From: Pomphorhynchus laevis
Taxonomy: Eukaryota; Acanthocephala; Palaeacanthocephala; Echinorhynchida; Pomphorhynchidae
Assembly: GCA_012934845.2 (NCBI GenBank)
Contig: WNNJ02002155.1
Coordinates: forward strand, 1 to 64,000
Length of the DNA: 64,000 nucleotides
Direction: 5' to 3'
This document shows, in pieces, positions 23,658 to 40,019 of this stretch; within the stretch, counting starts at the first letter, position 1; every line of letters begins with the position of its first letter. The notes under the pieces are model-generated. The model was not told where the DNA came from and searched no databases. It was given only the letters and a program-made list of their open reading frames with translations. The position numbers and the translations under genes are program-made.

Positions 23658-23974
23658 TTACTCCTTCGGATAGTCTTTGATAAGAACATTAATGTTATCG
23701 TCCATAGTTTGAGGCCATTCGTCCAAATTTAGCTCATTTACTATCATGTGAATGCACTTGAGCAGCAGATGACTGTATAGGTTCGTTTTTACCTCGCTTA
23801 AAGATTTGGCTTCAAATTCAAGCGTACATGGAAACGGAGGTAATTTGTTCGATGTCAGAAGATTAGCAAATGCACGTTCGATGAGATGTTCTTTCGTTCT
23901 AGATTCCGGTTCATCACTGGTGTATGTGTTCTTTAGCCATTGCCGCGTATCTTGTAAAATGTCAATGTCGTGAC
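23658..23974 (-). CDS. Unidentified gene, 3'-most recognised exon
   Basis: In the minus-strand frame this exon reads RQWLKNTYTSDEPESRTKEH, then TLEFEAKSLSEVKTNLYSHL and NELNLDEWPQTMDDNINVLI. It is charged, helical-looking and unlike the surrounding AT-rich DNA. The acceptor is aatatgtag before 23974. At the other end either GAG-TAA is the stop (to 23658) or gtaagt at 23661 is a donor. I do not recognise the family. It lies downstream of the other - strand exons and probably belongs to the same transcript, but the link across 24.0-25.4 kb is inferred. Confidence 0.55.
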
Positions 23975-24260
23975 CTACATATTAATTGTATATTAACAGA
24001 TGTGTATTAGATGAGTAATTTTTATCATATTATATGTATAATATTATTTTATCATATTATACGTATAATCTTGACATAAACTTTATTACATAATTTTATT
24101 AAGTATTATTAATACTGAATTATATTAATTATATACATTATTAATACAATATATTATATATTATTTAATATATAATAAATACATATTATTATATGTATTT
24201 ATATTGTTTAGGATGGTTCGCACAGCGATTCGATTATGTATTACAACGCTTCGAAACACA

Positions 24261-24580: not shown

Positions 24581-24829
24581 CATTAGACTTATAAAGCTGA
24601 TGATCGAAGTCCAGTTATTTAGCAGCAAATATGGATTAAAAATCAATCGTAACCAGCTTTGGCTCCTGGACCACAGTTTCAAACGATTTTTCGCAATAAC
24701 AATTTATATGTATAATATATAATAAGAGTTTCGTTTGAATCGGTATTGCTCGAGATTGCGATTAGCAATTCTTTCCATATGTTTGTGTAGGTGTTTGAAT
24801 CGAGCATATTCTTTAGTTTGCAAATTTTC

Positions 24830-24913
24830 GTCACTCCTAGACGGTAATGTGATAGCCAGCAGCCATCGTCAGTAAGATGAACTGTCACACGCCGCTTTGG
24901 CTGCCTCTGTGAC
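24830..24913 (-). ncRNA. Degraded copy of the permuted hammerhead-core motif
   Basis: This is the first-copy counterpart of 25184-25267. CTGACGA and GTC are kept, but the GAAAC word is CAAAG and helix b has a C-A mismatch. Helix a keeps pairing with a terminal G-U. It is best read as a decayed copy. Confidence 0.5.
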
Positions 24914-25183
24914 ATTGTGAAAATGCATTTCCGACATCTAGCTTAAATTGTAGGTGGCGTTAGCTCTTAAATCCTACAATTTGCAATGTAGACCATCATT
25001 AACAATCAGAGGATCAAACTTTCGGATGCTTGACTGTAAGAAACTAAAATTGAGTGAATCGATTCTTTCTATGTAATTAGAGTTTCGTTTGAATCGGTAT
25101 TGCTCGAGATTGCGATTAGCAATTCTTTCCGTATCTTTAAGTAAGTGTTCGAATCGAGCATATTCTTCAGTCTGCAAACTCTC

Positions 25184-25267
25184 GTCACTCCTAGACGGTC
25201 ATGTGATAGCCGGCAGCCATCGTCAGTAAGATGAACTATCACACGCCGTTTCGGCTGCCTCTGTGAC
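25184..25267 (-). ncRNA. Hammerhead-core motif in a non-standard strand order (copy 2)
   Basis: On the minus strand, helix d pairs 25263-25267 with 25184-25188. Helix a pairs 25253-25259 with 25212-25218 (7 bp). Helix b pairs 25246-25249 with 25195-25198 and 25236-25242 with 25203-25209. Helix c pairs 25227-25231 with 25189-25193. The core words are GAAA (25249-25252), CTGACGA (25220-25226) and GTC (25194-25196). Compared with 24496-24580, helix b is entirely different in sequence yet fully paired in both. Helices a, c and d also change while keeping pairing. Outside the helices the conserved words are exactly the hammerhead core, plus a 4-base linker UUCR. Unit context: 354-bp tandem repeat in an intron. 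Confidence 0.55.
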
Positions 25268-25323
25268 ATTGTGAAAATGCATTTCCGACATCTAGCTTAA
25301 ATTGTTGGTGGCGTTAGCTCTTA

Positions 25324-25542
25324 AATCCTACAATTTGCAATGCAGACCATCATTAACAACCAGAGGATCAAACTTTCGGATGCTTGACTGTAAGAAACCG
25401 AGATTGAGTGAATCGATTCTTTTTATGTAATTCGTAATATGTAATTGAACACAAATGTTCAAATGTTCCCAATTCTGTTGTCTACCCTTAGAAACTTTTT
25501 CGATTTCGAAATTGTACAGCACAGTATGCGCCACAATATCTC
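25324..25542 (-). CDS. Unidentified gene, exon 5
   Basis: Begins at 25542 after the acceptor ttttgcag. The preceding exon ends in C, and C plus GA gives Arg, so the reading is RDIVAHTVLYNFEIEKVSKG then RQQNWEHLNICVQLHI. The frame stays open to a stop near 25324 (ending GLHCKL), but the last third also occurs in the neighbouring 354-bp repeat. The true exon probably ends earlier, at a donor I cannot place. No family recognised. Confidence 0.6.
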
Positions 25543-25791
25543 CTGCAAAATAAAATTAGCAATGGCATCGCTGATCGAAAATATCAAGAATTTCGAACGA
25601 TTTTCATTTGAAGTGATAAGCTAGAGACAACCGATAGTTATTAAAAATATTTATTTGAAACATATTCATTAGCTATTATAAAAAAAAACAATATTATAAA
25701 AAAACAACATATTCATTAGCTATTATAAATATTTAAACATTTATCGTGTATAATTATTTATGATTGTAAAATTTAAATAATGGACACTTAC

Positions 25792-25928
25792 GTGAACTTA
25801 GCTGCATAATTTCATCAAATTTCTGCCTGACCCATGGTTTCCAGTGGCTTCGGCATGTCCCCCGCACAGCCATTATCATGTAGTTTGCCAAATCAATAGC
25901 CATTTCTTTCAGGGTAACTAAAATCCCA
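25792..25928 (-). CDS. Unidentified gene, exon 4
   Basis: The exon runs from a phase-2 acceptor (tctcccaaag before 25928) to a donor cac-gtaagt at 25791. It encodes GILVTLKEMAIDLANYMIMA then VRGTCRSHWKPWVRQKFDEI and MQLSS. GG from exon 3 plus T makes Gly, so the frame runs on without a break. An alternative acceptor nine bases further in (gattttag) would break the frame. The product looks helical and soluble. I do not recognise it. Confidence 0.7.
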
Positions 25929-26169
25929 CTTTGGGAGAATAAAAACAAGAATTTGGAATAAAGCATTATAGTCATTAGATTGGCACTATTTAAAATACAA
26001 CTTGATAATAATAGCAATAGAAATTAGGATCTAGTAACAAAATTCTAGATATTTCAAAATGATAAGATGCTTGATACAAACGTTTCGTATGTGGGATGAT
26101 ACAATAATTTATTTATTTTTATAGCGAATTTGAGGTAAAGAAATGTTGAGAATAATATAAATACTTAGT

Positions 26170-26323: not shown

Positions 26324-26400
26324 TCAAATTCTATAAATTCGAATGAAGATATAGGAATGGAAAATATAATTTACAAGAAATATTTGAAAAACGGTAGAAA

Positions 26401-26481
26401 GTACCGTTTCGTCATCACAATGACTCATCAGTGCCAGATCCCTCCCACTACTGGATGCAGAGGAGGACTGGCAGACGGCAC
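26401..26481 (-). ncRNA. Type III hammerhead ribozyme, inverted copy
   Basis: On the minus strand the order is GUGCCGU-C (stem III 3' strand and cleavage base C17, 26474), then stem I UGCCAG...CUGGCA, CUGAUGA (26425-26431), stem II GUCAU-UGUG-AUGAC, GAAA, and ACGGUAC (stem III 5' strand, 26401-26407). All invariant core bases are present. Together with the + copy at 26491-26571 it forms a long palindrome with a 9-base centre. Expected cleavage is between 26474 and 26473. Confidence 0.9.
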
Positions 26482-26490
26482 ACGAGTCAT

Positions 26491-26571
26491 GTGCCGTCTG
26501 CCAGTCCTCCTTTGCATCCAGTAGTGGGAGGGATCCGGCACTGATGAGTCATTGTGATGACGAAACGGTAC
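26491..26571 (+). ncRNA. Type III hammerhead ribozyme, copy 1
   Basis: Self-cleaving RNA motif of 81 nt. Stem III is GTGCCGT (26491-26497) with ACGGTAC (26565-26571), 7 bp including one G-U. C17 is 26498. Stem I is TGCCAG paired with CCGGCA next to the core, with one A-C mismatch, and a TCCTCC/GGGAGGGA part further out. The core CTGATGA is 26541-26547. Stem II GTCAT/ATGAC has loop TGTG (26548-26561), and GAAA is 26562-26565. The GUC cleavage triplet and every conserved core base are present. Expected cut after 26498. Confidence 0.93.
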
Positions 26572-26735
26572 TTGCTACTGTTATCGTCTTTCTTCCGTGT
26601 CTTGAAAAAAGAGACCTGCGCTGGCATTTGCCTGTGCTTTTGCTAATGATCCTATTTGGTAAAGCAGTAGTGCTGATTTAGCACTCAATGTGAAGTTATC
26701 AGAAATCTTTCTGCTACTTCATACACATGACTCGT

Positions 26736-26816
26736 GTGCCGTCTGCCAGTCCTCCTCTGTATCCAGCAGTAGGAGGGATCTGGCACTGATGAGTCATTGT
26801 GATGACGAAACGGTAC
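26736..26816 (+). ncRNA. Type III hammerhead ribozyme, copy 2
   Basis: Same 81-nt layout as copy 1, with stem I next to the core fully paired (TGCCAG/CTGGCA). The core CTGATGA is 26786-26792, C17 is 26743 and GAAA is 26807-26810. All invariant bases are intact, so it is predicted to be active. Cleavage here and in copy 1 would free a 245-nt RNA (26499-26743). Confidence 0.94.
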
Positions 26817-27056
26817 TTGCTACTATTATCGTCGTTCTTCCGCGTCTGGCTAAAAATGATCGCGTACATAATTCACGCGGAATAATTTCACACTCTCTCT
26901 AGAAAATTAAAAAGATACTAGCCGATAAAAAGAGATTTGCGCTGGCATTTGTCTGTGCTTTTGCTAATGATCCTATTTGGTAAAGCAGTAGTGCTGATTT
27001 AGCACTCAATGTGAAGTTACCAGAAATCTTTCTGGTACTTCATACACATGACTCGT

Positions 27057-27137
27057 GTGCCGTCTGCCAGTCCTCCTCTGTATCCAGCAGTGGGAGGGAT
27101 CTGGCACTGATTAGTCATTGTGATGACGAAACGGTAC
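27057..27137 (+). ncRNA. Hammerhead ribozyme copy 3, core mutated (G8 to T)
   Basis: All three stems are kept, but the core reads CTGATTA at 27107-27113. The changed base, 27112, is G8, the general-acid guanosine of the hammerhead, so this copy should be inactive or very slow. Confidence 0.9.
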
Positions 27138-27301
27138 TTGCTACTGTTATCGTCGTTCTTCCGTGTCTGGAAAAAAGAGACCTGCGCTGGCATTTGCCAG
27201 TGCTTTTGCTAATGATCCTATTTGGTAAAGCAGTAGTGCTGATTTAGCACTCAATGTGAAGTTACCAGAAATCTTTCTGGTACTTCATACACATGACTCG
27301 T

Positions 27302-27382
27302 GTGCCGTCTGCCAGTCCTCCTCTGTATCCAGCAGTGGGAGGGATCTGGCACTTATGAGTCATTGTGATGACGAAACGGTAC
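27302..27382 (+). ncRNA. Hammerhead ribozyme copy 4, core mutated (G5 to T)
   Basis: All stems and GAAA are kept. The core reads CTTATGA at 27352-27358, with G5 changed at 27354. G5 is invariant in hammerheads, so this copy is predicted inactive. Confidence 0.9.
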
Positions 27383-27488
27383 TTGCTACCGTTCTTCCGC
27401 GTTTGGCTTCAATGATAACAACGTATTTCACGCGGATTTGTCTCACTCTCTTTTGAGATTTGAAAAATAAATGAATAACAAACGCTAC

Positions 27489-27727
27489 CCAATTTTCTTA
27501 GGAATTGATGTAACTTTTCGTAGTTGAGCAATGTTTACATCTCGAGCCTGAGAGCACATAACCGCCATACAATCCACAATCGATGTTAACAATCCATCAA
27601 TGTCAACAGTTACTTCTTCATCATTGCTATCGGCAAGCAGCAATGCACATATCGGCTCGACATTCGCTTTAGACTCTATGATTGCTGCCAATGTAGGCTT
27701 GACAGGATAATTGATTTCTTCAAGCTC
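27489..27727 (-). CDS. Unidentified gene, exon 3
   Basis: The exon enters in phase 0 after tgcttgtag and encodes ELEEINYPVKPTLAAIIESK then ANVEPICALLLADSNDEEVT, VDIDGLLTSIVDCMAVMCSQ and ARDVNIAQLRKVTSIPKKIG. It leaves in phase 2 at a weak donor, gtagcg. The sequence looks like helical repeats with a short acidic loop. I considered HEAT-type scaffold proteins (condensin II, FANCD2) but found no convincing match. Confidence 0.72.
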
Positions 27728-32829: not shown

Positions 32830-34432
32830 ATCAAAAATTAACACTTTATTTTATTAAAACTATATAGATAATCAAATATCTTAAATCATAAAGATAAATT
32901 AGCTAAATTCTGGTTTATTAAATTTACAATTTATTTTATTAAAACTACATAGATAATCAAATATCTTTAATCGTAAAGATAAACGAGCTAAATGCTCTTT
33001 ATTTAATTAACACGCTATTTTATTAAAACTATATTTAATCAAATATCTTTAATCGTAAAGATAAATGAGCTAAATTCTGGTTTATTTAATTTATAATTTA
33101 TTTTATTAAAACTAAATAGATAATCAAATATCTTTAATCATAAAGATAAATGAATTAAATTCTAGTTTATTTAATTAACACTTTTGCTTATTAAAACTAA
33201 ATAGATAATCAAATATCTTAAATCATACAGATAAATTAGCTAAATTCTGGTTTATTTAATTAACAATTTATTTTATTAAAACTACATAGATAATCAAATA
33301 TCCTTAATCATAAAGATAAATGAATTAAATTCTAGTTTATTTAATTAACACTTTTGCTTATTAAAACTAAATAGATAATCAAATATCTTAAATCATACAG
33401 ATAAATTAGCTAAATTCTGGTTTATTTAATTAACAATTTATTTTATTAAAACTACATAGATAATCAAATATCTTTAATCATAAAGATAAACGAGCTAAAT
33501 TCTCGTTTATTTAATTAACAATTTATTTTATTAAAACTATATATATAATCAAATATCTTTAATCGTAAAGATAAATGAGCTAAATTCTGGTTTATTTAAT
33601 TTATAATTTATTTTTTTAAAACTATATAGATAATTAAATATCTTTAATCATAAAGATAAATGAGCTAAATTCTCGTTTATTTAATTAACAATTTATTTTA
33701 TTAAAACTATATAGATAATCAAATATATTTAATCATAAAGATAAATGAGCTAAATTCTCGTTTATTTAATTAACAATTTATTTTATTAAAACTACATAGA
33801 TAATCAAATATCTTTAATCGTAAAGATAAACGAGCTAAATGCTCTTTATTTAATTAACACGCTATTTTATTAAAACTATATATATAATCAAATATCTTTA
33901 ATCGTAAAGATAAATGAGCTAAATTCTGGTTTATTTAATTTATAATTTATTTTTTTAAAACTATATAGATAATTAAATATCTTTAATCATAAAGATAAAT
34001 GAGCTAAATTCTCGTTTATTTAATTAACACGCTATTTTATTAAAACTATATAGATAATTAAATATATTTAATCATAAAGATAAACGAGCTAAATTCTCGT
34101 TTATTTAATTAACACTTTATTTTATTAAAACTATATATATAATCAAATATCTTTAATCGTAAAGATAAATGAGCTAAATTCTGGTTTATTTAATTTATAA
34201 TTTATTTTTTTAAAACTATATAGATAATTAAATATCTTTAATCATAAAGATAAATGAGCAAAATGTTAGTTTATTTAATTAACAATTTATTTTATTAAAA
34301 CTACATAGATAATTAAATATCTTTAATCATAAAGATAAACGAGCTAAATTCTCGTTTATTTAATTAACAATTTATTTTATTAAAACTAAATAGATAATCA
34401 AATATCTTTAATCATAAAGATATTTGATGATT
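32830..34432. repeat. ~85-bp AT-rich satellite, left block
   Basis: About 19 copies of an 84-85 bp unit. Typical words are ATTTTATTAAAACTA, AGATAATCAAATATC, a perfect 8-bp dyad TATCTTTA-ATCA-TAAAGATA, and GAGCTAAATTC. Units differ at a few positions. The same satellite resumes at 39065-39985, beyond an inserted retrotransposon. Confidence 0.95.
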
Positions 34433-39064: not shown

Positions 39065-39985
39065 GTAGTTATAAAGATAAATTAGCTAAATGCTAGTTTA
39101 TTTAATTAACACTTTTGCTTATTAAAACTATATATATATAATTAAATATCTTTAATCGTAAAGATAAATGAGCAAAATGTTAGTTTATTAAATTAGCACT
39201 TTTGCTTATTAAAACTAAATAGATAATCAAATATCTTTAATCGTAAAGATAAATTAGCTAAATGCTAGTTTATTTAATTAACACGCTATTTTGTTAAAAC
39301 TACATAGATAATTAAATATCTTTAATCATAAAGATAAACGAGCTAAATTCTCGTTTATTTAATTAACAATTTATTTTATTAAAACTACATAAATAATTAA
39401 ATATCTTTAATCGTAAAGATAAACGAGCTAAATGCTCTTTATTTAATTAACACGCTATTTTATTAAAACTATATATATAATCAAATATCTTTAATCGTAA
39501 AGATAAATGAGCTAAATTCTGGTTTATTTAATTAACAATTTATTTTATTAAAACTACATAGATAATCAAATATCCTTAATCATAAAGATAAATGAATTAA
39601 ATTCTAGTTTATTTAATTAACACTTTTGCTTATTAAAACTAAATAGATAATCAAATATCTTAAATCAAAAAGATAAATGAGCTAAATGCTAGTTTATTTA
39701 ATTAACACTTTATTTTATTAAAACTATATAGATAATCAAATATCTTAAATCATAAAGATAAATTAGCTAAATTCTGGTTTATTTAATTAACAATTTATTT
39801 TATTAAAACTACATAGATAATCAAATATCTTTAATCATAAAGATAAACGAGCTAAATGCTCTTTATTTAATTAACACGCTATTTTATTAAAACTACATAG
39901 ATAATCAAATATCTTTAATCGTAAAGATAAATGAGCTAAATTCTTTTTATTTAATTAACAATTTGTTTTAATAAAACTACATCGT
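39065..39985. repeat. ~85-bp AT-rich satellite, right block
   Basis: About 11 copies of the same unit as 32830-34432, in the same orientation, with the same variants (for example AATGCTCTTTATT and the ACGCTATTTTA form). This shows that the LINE between the blocks inserted into a pre-existing array. Confidence 0.95.
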
Positions 39986-40019
39986 TAATTTTTCAAGTCG
40001 GAAAAGGTTTTTTAATTCA

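Follow-up and report, generated by a model that had tools for sequence, protein, structure and literature searches.

Predicted type III hammerhead ribozymes in a retrozyme-like tandem repeat family of the acanthocephalan Pomphorhynchus laevis

Description

Here, we describe an array of predicted self-cleaving ribozymes of the type III hammerhead class, carried by short tandem repeats in the genome of the acanthocephalan fish parasite Pomphorhynchus laevis and located at 26401-27382 of the stretch analyzed (the window: 64,000 nucleotides, positions 1 to 64,000 of the forward strand of contig WNNJ02002155.1, assembly GCA_012934845.2; coordinates refer to this 64-kb window unless another locus is named). 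This array belongs to a large mobile family, of which it is a single insertion, and we consider it likely (probability about 0.82) to represent a non-autonomous, apparently non-coding, retrozyme-like retroelement in this genome. Type III hammerheads in tandem repeats of an animal genome are unusual, as the first-pass annotation of this DNA had remarked. Published animal retrozymes carry type I; the best reading would be a retrozyme with a type III ribozyme in place of the usual animal type I ribozyme. The edges of other family copies suggest, in addition, that cleavage of the RNA plays a part in the movement of the element.

Within 26401-27382 there are five copies of the hammerhead motif, about 81 nt each, and a family model built on 69 aligned copies (3 of which are copies 1-3 of the window element, locus L001) matches the 64-kb window exactly five times, at 106.7-116.4 bits. 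Copies 1-3 possess an open helix III (GUGCCGU/ACGGUAC), a GUC triplet, a helix I (UGCCAG/CUGGCA) with a long apical extension and, in copy 2, one mismatch, the CUGAUGA strand, a 5-bp helix II (GUCAU/AUGAC) closed by a UGUG loop, and GAAA. All five copies had first been described as complete, which holds for the helices, GUC, CUGAUGA and GAAA of copies 1-3 but not for copies 4 and 5, whose cores are mutated; the NUH triplet and the CUGANGA/GAAA core are thus complete in 3/5 copies. With short flanks, the minimum-energy fold of copy 3 is the hammerhead (-36.9 kcal/mol, z -3.88; shuffles of the segment, -24.1 kcal/mol, sd 3.3, with 1/200 as low). A three-helix type III descriptor yielded three matches in the window and one in 200 dinucleotide shuffles of the window, and a type I descriptor yielded no match over the fetched loci and the window. 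Between 93.2 and 97.4% of cells are paired per helix over the 69 copies, in a structure derived from one of these copies, and helix III is the open helix both in the copy 3 fold and in the 69-copy alignment. The fold and the descriptor support the type III topology originally proposed for 26401-27382, within a short tandem repeat in animal DNA.

Some results weigh against this assignment. A covariance check of the window with Rfam, which the first-pass annotation had put forward and whose failure it had named as one half of a refutation, gave 0 matches at gathering score; RF00008 reached 19.1-19.8 bits, compared to a gathering score of 48.5 bits, and did so on copies 1-3 only. The model (54 positions) misaligns at helix I, misplacing the 5' part, and it apparently falls below the gathering score because helix I is 42 nt long; the gathering score is itself a library threshold and no structural feature. 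The hammerhead covariation score is 0.106, versus 0.109 for shuffled alignments (415/500 shuffles as high), and changes inside the hammerhead helices are mostly one-sided (G-C/G-U). Several Rfam microRNA models also match 26402-26573, each below its own cut-off, and were rejected as candidates, the matches being explained by the palindrome of copies 1 and 2.

The entire inserted element spans 26392-27457, with an inverted partial unit followed by plus-strand tandem units, and lies between the two copies of a putative 10-bp target-site duplication, ATTTGAAAAA, at 26382-26391 (left) and 27458-27467 (right; p=0.019 against mismatched pairs). Contrary to what had been assumed, its five ribozymes are not uniform. 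Copy 1 (26401-26481, minus strand; intact core, with the minus strand predicted to be cut between 26474 and 26473) is inverted and stands head to head with copy 2 (26491-26571, plus strand; intact core, predicted to be cut after 26498 and with an A-C mismatch in stem I), the two forming a near-perfect palindrome with arms of about 85 bp (26398-26574). Copy 3 (26736-26816, plus strand; predicted cut after 26743) is wholly intact. Copies 4 (27057-27137) and 5 (27302-27382), both on the plus strand, are changed at G8 (CUGAUUA) and G5 (CUUAUGA), respectively; both positions are invariant in hammerhead cores. All stop-to-stop frames that cross the array are short, up to 100 aa.

Spacings among copies 2-5 are 245, 321 and 245 bp. 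Cuts after 26498 and 26743 would release the 245-nt unit between them (26499-26743, plus strand), in agreement with the first-pass annotation; this unit is 76 bp shorter than the next one (26744-27064, plus strand), a full-length 321-nt unit that serves as reference, with the first base past the cut as unit position 1. The length of 245 bp had been taken for the unit itself, and is instead a deletion variant, because 28/31 distinct units measured in the window and other loci are 303-325 bp long.

Nor is the array an isolated set of five active ribozymes, as it had first appeared, but one head-to-head insertion, with two core-mutated copies, of a family with 1,786 cores. These are the matches (925 + 861) to the 26-nt core of the window, at no more than 1 mismatch, in the 249.4-Mb assembly (3,242 contigs), where the reversed control gave 0; a 246-bp query gave 140 matches in the best 40 scored regions of 1,799 candidates. 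Judging from the number of cores, the family must be present in hundreds of genome places. Pairwise identity among three subfamily units is 88-90% at positions 1-42 (helix I) and 62-77% at positions 69-313, and their cores are 100% identical; it counts against this last figure that core identity is partly a matter of selection, because the core pattern had itself been used to find the loci of two of the three units. Two hairpins that lie outside the hammerhead retain their pairing through double changes among 24 units (columns 256/266, G-C to A-U in 5/24; columns 278/302, A-U to U-A in 9/24); these exchanges track subfamily lines and may each be a single event.

Cleavage may be restrained from within the unit. 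In predicted folds of the natural context, the core strand can be paired by the segment that directly precedes helix III. The hammerhead has the lowest energy when 0-10 nt of upstream sequence are included; with 20-100 nt, an alternative fold is 2.2-5.8 kcal/mol better than the forced hammerhead, by energies that leave tertiary contacts out. The decoy helix is also present in the consensus fold of 24 units (columns 46-58 with 308-320). Such upstream-strand pairing may hold back cleavage, so that multimers persist.

Element edges were examined in loci comprising the best 40 regions for the one 246-bp query and the first 30 core-pattern places in contig order, which is a non-random sample; the end analyses used 61 and 60 of 80 fetched array loci, with overlapping or duplicate loci dropped. 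Junction repeats of at least 9 bp, mostly 9-14 bp where found, flank 25/55 elements with both ends placed, compared to 4.2% of mismatched flank pairs, in a test for which the ends were set by hand beforehand and some shifted by a few bases. The element of locus L035 interrupts a Penelope-like element (PLE) at a 13-bp repeat, and its joined flanks match across the joint in 40/40 scored Penelope-like copies, which are taken as empty sites for that reason. Outward 3' ends fall at unit positions 113-133 (31/89) or 155-176 (37/89), with one outward end in each cluster (105-135 and 145-178) in 17/25 head-to-head elements. The window element deviates on its left side (ends 80 and 170 by BLAST, about 82 and 161 once the repeat is taken off). 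By their edges, the elements appear to be retrotransposed insertions with target-site duplications, as found for animal retrozymes. Weighing on the other side are the 30/55 elements without a 9-bp junction repeat, the failure of the repeats of L008, L039, L042 and L050 to abut both ends, and the length of the empty-site copies (405, against 413 for the joined query), which leaves a gap of about 8 nt at a position not seen.

Free 5' ends coincide with the predicted cut, at unit position 1 (L049, L016, L017, L018, L058, L061 and L062) or 2 (L022), in 8/35 cases (uniform expectation 0.2, p 4.6e-11), as do 5/57 inner ends of head-to-head elements (p 3e-5). Among the 35, L052 and L055 share one end that is counted twice and L032 and L033 share flanks, none of these being at positions 1-2; L062 has a 7-nt inverted repeat directly upstream, and L041, placed at position 321 by script and alternatively at 1, is outside the 8. 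L058 and L061 are shorter than half a unit, as expected of a cleaved monomer primed internally, and L017 and L018 each contain another complete hammerhead, so their template retained at least one uncut ribozyme. L002 and L039 have their 5' ends at 40-42, at the foot of the helix I hairpin on its 3' side, placed as a polymerase stop would be. Genome-wide, core-start words lack the upstream GTC in 195/761 cases (25.6%), versus 248/1,273 (19.5%) at a control boundary (p=0.0014). Use of the cut is disfavored by the 27/35 free 5' ends located away from positions 1-2, and the word count gives modest support, its control boundary being at the hairpin base where element ends also occur.

A linear, cleaved RNA template would most simply explain the 5' ends at the cut site. 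Position 1 might instead be a transcription start site, or the place where copying of a circular template stops at a ligation scar; either would likewise yield element 5' ends there, and circular RNA is the published retrozyme intermediate (as given in the cited part of PMC7229834). We find this unlikely, as a start site precisely at the predicted cut would be a coincidence, and arrays of more than one unit would need the scar to have been passed in earlier rounds of copying a circle.

Discussion

Under the retrozyme-like reading, the array would be transcribed as a multimeric RNA, and the hammerheads would cut after GUC to produce RNAs with their 5' end at unit position 1, a step deduced from the sequence and the element 5' ends. 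The abundant PLEs are the most likely source of a reverse transcriptase acting in trans, which would prime at one or two favored sites, around unit positions 125 and 165, and copy to the RNA 5' end or stop early, and the cDNA would be inserted with a duplication of mostly 9-14 bp; the ends and duplications of this step are seen in the elements, and its enzyme and priming are presumed. Priming by both target strands would then give head-to-head elements of the structure observed in the window. Head-to-head insertions occur with PLEs, as in this family, and fit such an enzyme; twin priming by long interspersed nuclear elements (LINEs) is another route to them and may also be their source. We further propose, tentatively and as possible rather than probable, that the template is a linear RNA with a hammerhead-made 5' end, primed at fixed internal sites, with the junctions as a fossil record of cleavage in the animal, and that the upstream decoy strand regulates cleavage and sets the number of units copied. 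This differs from the published circular-RNA template model of retrozymes.

Penelope-like reverse transcriptase sequences are present in the genome, as are GIY-YIG sequences (75 matches from 150 scored of 795 candidates). In the cited parts of earlier work, PLEs make up about 15% of P. laevis transposable element content (PMC7943196) and a retrozyme-PLE partnership has been proposed before (PMC7761336). Two points speak against a role for PLEs: no direct link from the family to a particular reverse transcriptase was found, and LINEs are more abundant than PLEs, being the largest P. laevis repeat class at 36% in RepeatMasker (PMC7310846, in the part cited).

We regard as quite unlikely the idea that DNA-level recombination or LINE machinery amplified the family as a common satellite or a dispersed non-autonomous repeat, with its hammerhead unused. 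Tandem head-to-tail units, the rank of LINEs as largest repeat class (36%; PMC7310846, as above) and the core mutations in 2/5 local ribozymes are in keeping with this idea; however, short arrays that are scattered, carry junction repeats and have defined 3' ends are unlike a satellite, an unused ribozyme leaves unexplained why 5' ends are in excess at the cut site, conservation between subfamilies is highest in the hammerhead, and no long A-tail was seen at 3' ends in the element listing.

Very unlikely is an origin of the hammerhead unit as the pseudo-LTR (long terminal repeat) of an autonomous PLE, like the minimal type I hammerheads of other PLEs, with solo arrays as remnants. Fragments of one Penelope-like reverse transcriptase family are found in the flanks of 10 of about 60 distinct loci, several of them downstream and in the same orientation. 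Proximity is expected, because PLEs are very abundant, and orientation is mixed (L073, L009, L061). Least ambiguous is L035, which is an insertion into a PLE as judged by the 40/40 copies that match across its joined flanks; in 40/45 L035 matches, PLE homology starts at query 261-264, the array end (the remaining five comprise L035 itself, two of its arrays and two short fragments). By way of L035, the unit was rejected as a terminal repeat of the one PLE family tested, and the co-occurrence at 10 of about 60 loci was discarded as a functional link, being explained by nested insertion and PLE abundance. An integrated agent resembling hepatitis delta virus (HDV) or a viroid is scarcely credible, as HDV-like RNAs have ribozymes in both polarities and a delta antigen open reading frame, whereas the unit here is about 320 nt and both window strands, when scanned, show motifs in the sense of the unit alone; viral_contigs has no sequence that matches the core exactly, and the delta antigen was not part of the search.

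The array seems to be in an intron of a minus-strand Tcp11-like gene, as judged from an exon-like frame at 23658-23981 that matches PF05794 (E 4.8e-4, below the curated cut-off); frames 25754-26023 and 27485-27727 had no family match when tested, and may be exons. Elsewhere in the window, a 354-bp unit occurs twice in tandem (24716-25432, 93% matches), with a similar reading frame in L062, and may be a dispersed repeat of unknown kind, and two arrays of a similar 85-bp repeat (32836-34422 and 39071-39989) flank a region with minus-strand reverse-transcriptase-like frames. One reverse transcriptase of the window shows 81% identity, over 81% of the query, to a P. laevis protein, and an intact LCAT-like frame on contig C1309 of the assembly shows 100% identity to another over 99% of its length. 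Among the fetched loci, L035 has an open frame for a Penelope-like reverse transcriptase (L035:3465-5000), and the 40 scored matches to its PLE leader, mostly at 86-87% identity to the query and many with equal scores, suggest recent amplification. An unrelated hammerhead-like core, CTGATGAG...GCCGAAAC, whose helix III is weak, occurs twice on the minus strand of L008, at about 2830 and 3149 with a spacing of 319 bp, and may belong to a PLE as a minimal type I motif. COX1-like pieces with stops and frame breaks in L081, L082 and L083 are probably mitochondrial pseudogenes or poorly assembled mitochondrial DNA.

The comparisons that follow rest on the cited parts of each source. Metazoan retrozymes without LTRs have tandem units of 150-450 bp with type I hammerheads, and their circular RNA has been shown (PMC7229834, Cervera and de la Pena 2020). 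Like them, the P. laevis family has short tandem units that each carry a hammerhead, from dimers to multimers, in many copies, with target-site duplications longer than 4 bp when present; unlike them, its hammerhead is type III with a long helix I (PMC7229834). We class the family as a variant of the animal non-LTR retrozyme, because it appears to work like one but lacks the type I hammerhead. Plant LTR retrozymes, with LTRs of about 300-400 bp around a 300-600 bp center and 4-bp duplications, are likewise dispersed, non-autonomous retroelements with type III hammerheads, and differ from the plain tandem or head-to-head units and mostly 9-14 bp junction repeats described here (PMC4918200); their layout of LTRs and 4-bp duplications was not found in the elements examined, where primer-binding sites and polypurine tracts were not sought.

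Extended type III hammerheads are reported from toad and termite HDV-like RNAs and from D. pseudoobscura, Rhagoletis, Musca, Hermetia and termite genomes, with a GCCR/YGGC loop pairing (PMC7936874). The P. laevis ribozymes share their type III topology and their long helix I with an apical hairpin, and differ in sequence and in the 5-bp helix II with its UGUG loop (PMC7936874). The minimal hammerheads of PLEs and Terminons are also tandem and belong to retroelements of the rotifer-acanthocephalan group, but are type I, without helix III, and in an autonomous element (PMC7761336, PMC6431247). In the open-licence literature, with subscription literature outside the search, no paper contained both acanthocephala and hammerhead ribozyme.

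As far as the cited parts of these sources go, the type III hammerheads reported so far come mostly from plants, subviral RNAs and certain insect genomes (PMC7229834, PMC7761336, PMC7936874). With the junction data, one can ask from sequence alone whether a ribozyme takes part in retrotransposition, and at what step. The presence of type III in a high-copy acanthocephalan family would mean that the host kingdom does not dictate which type of ribozyme is carried.
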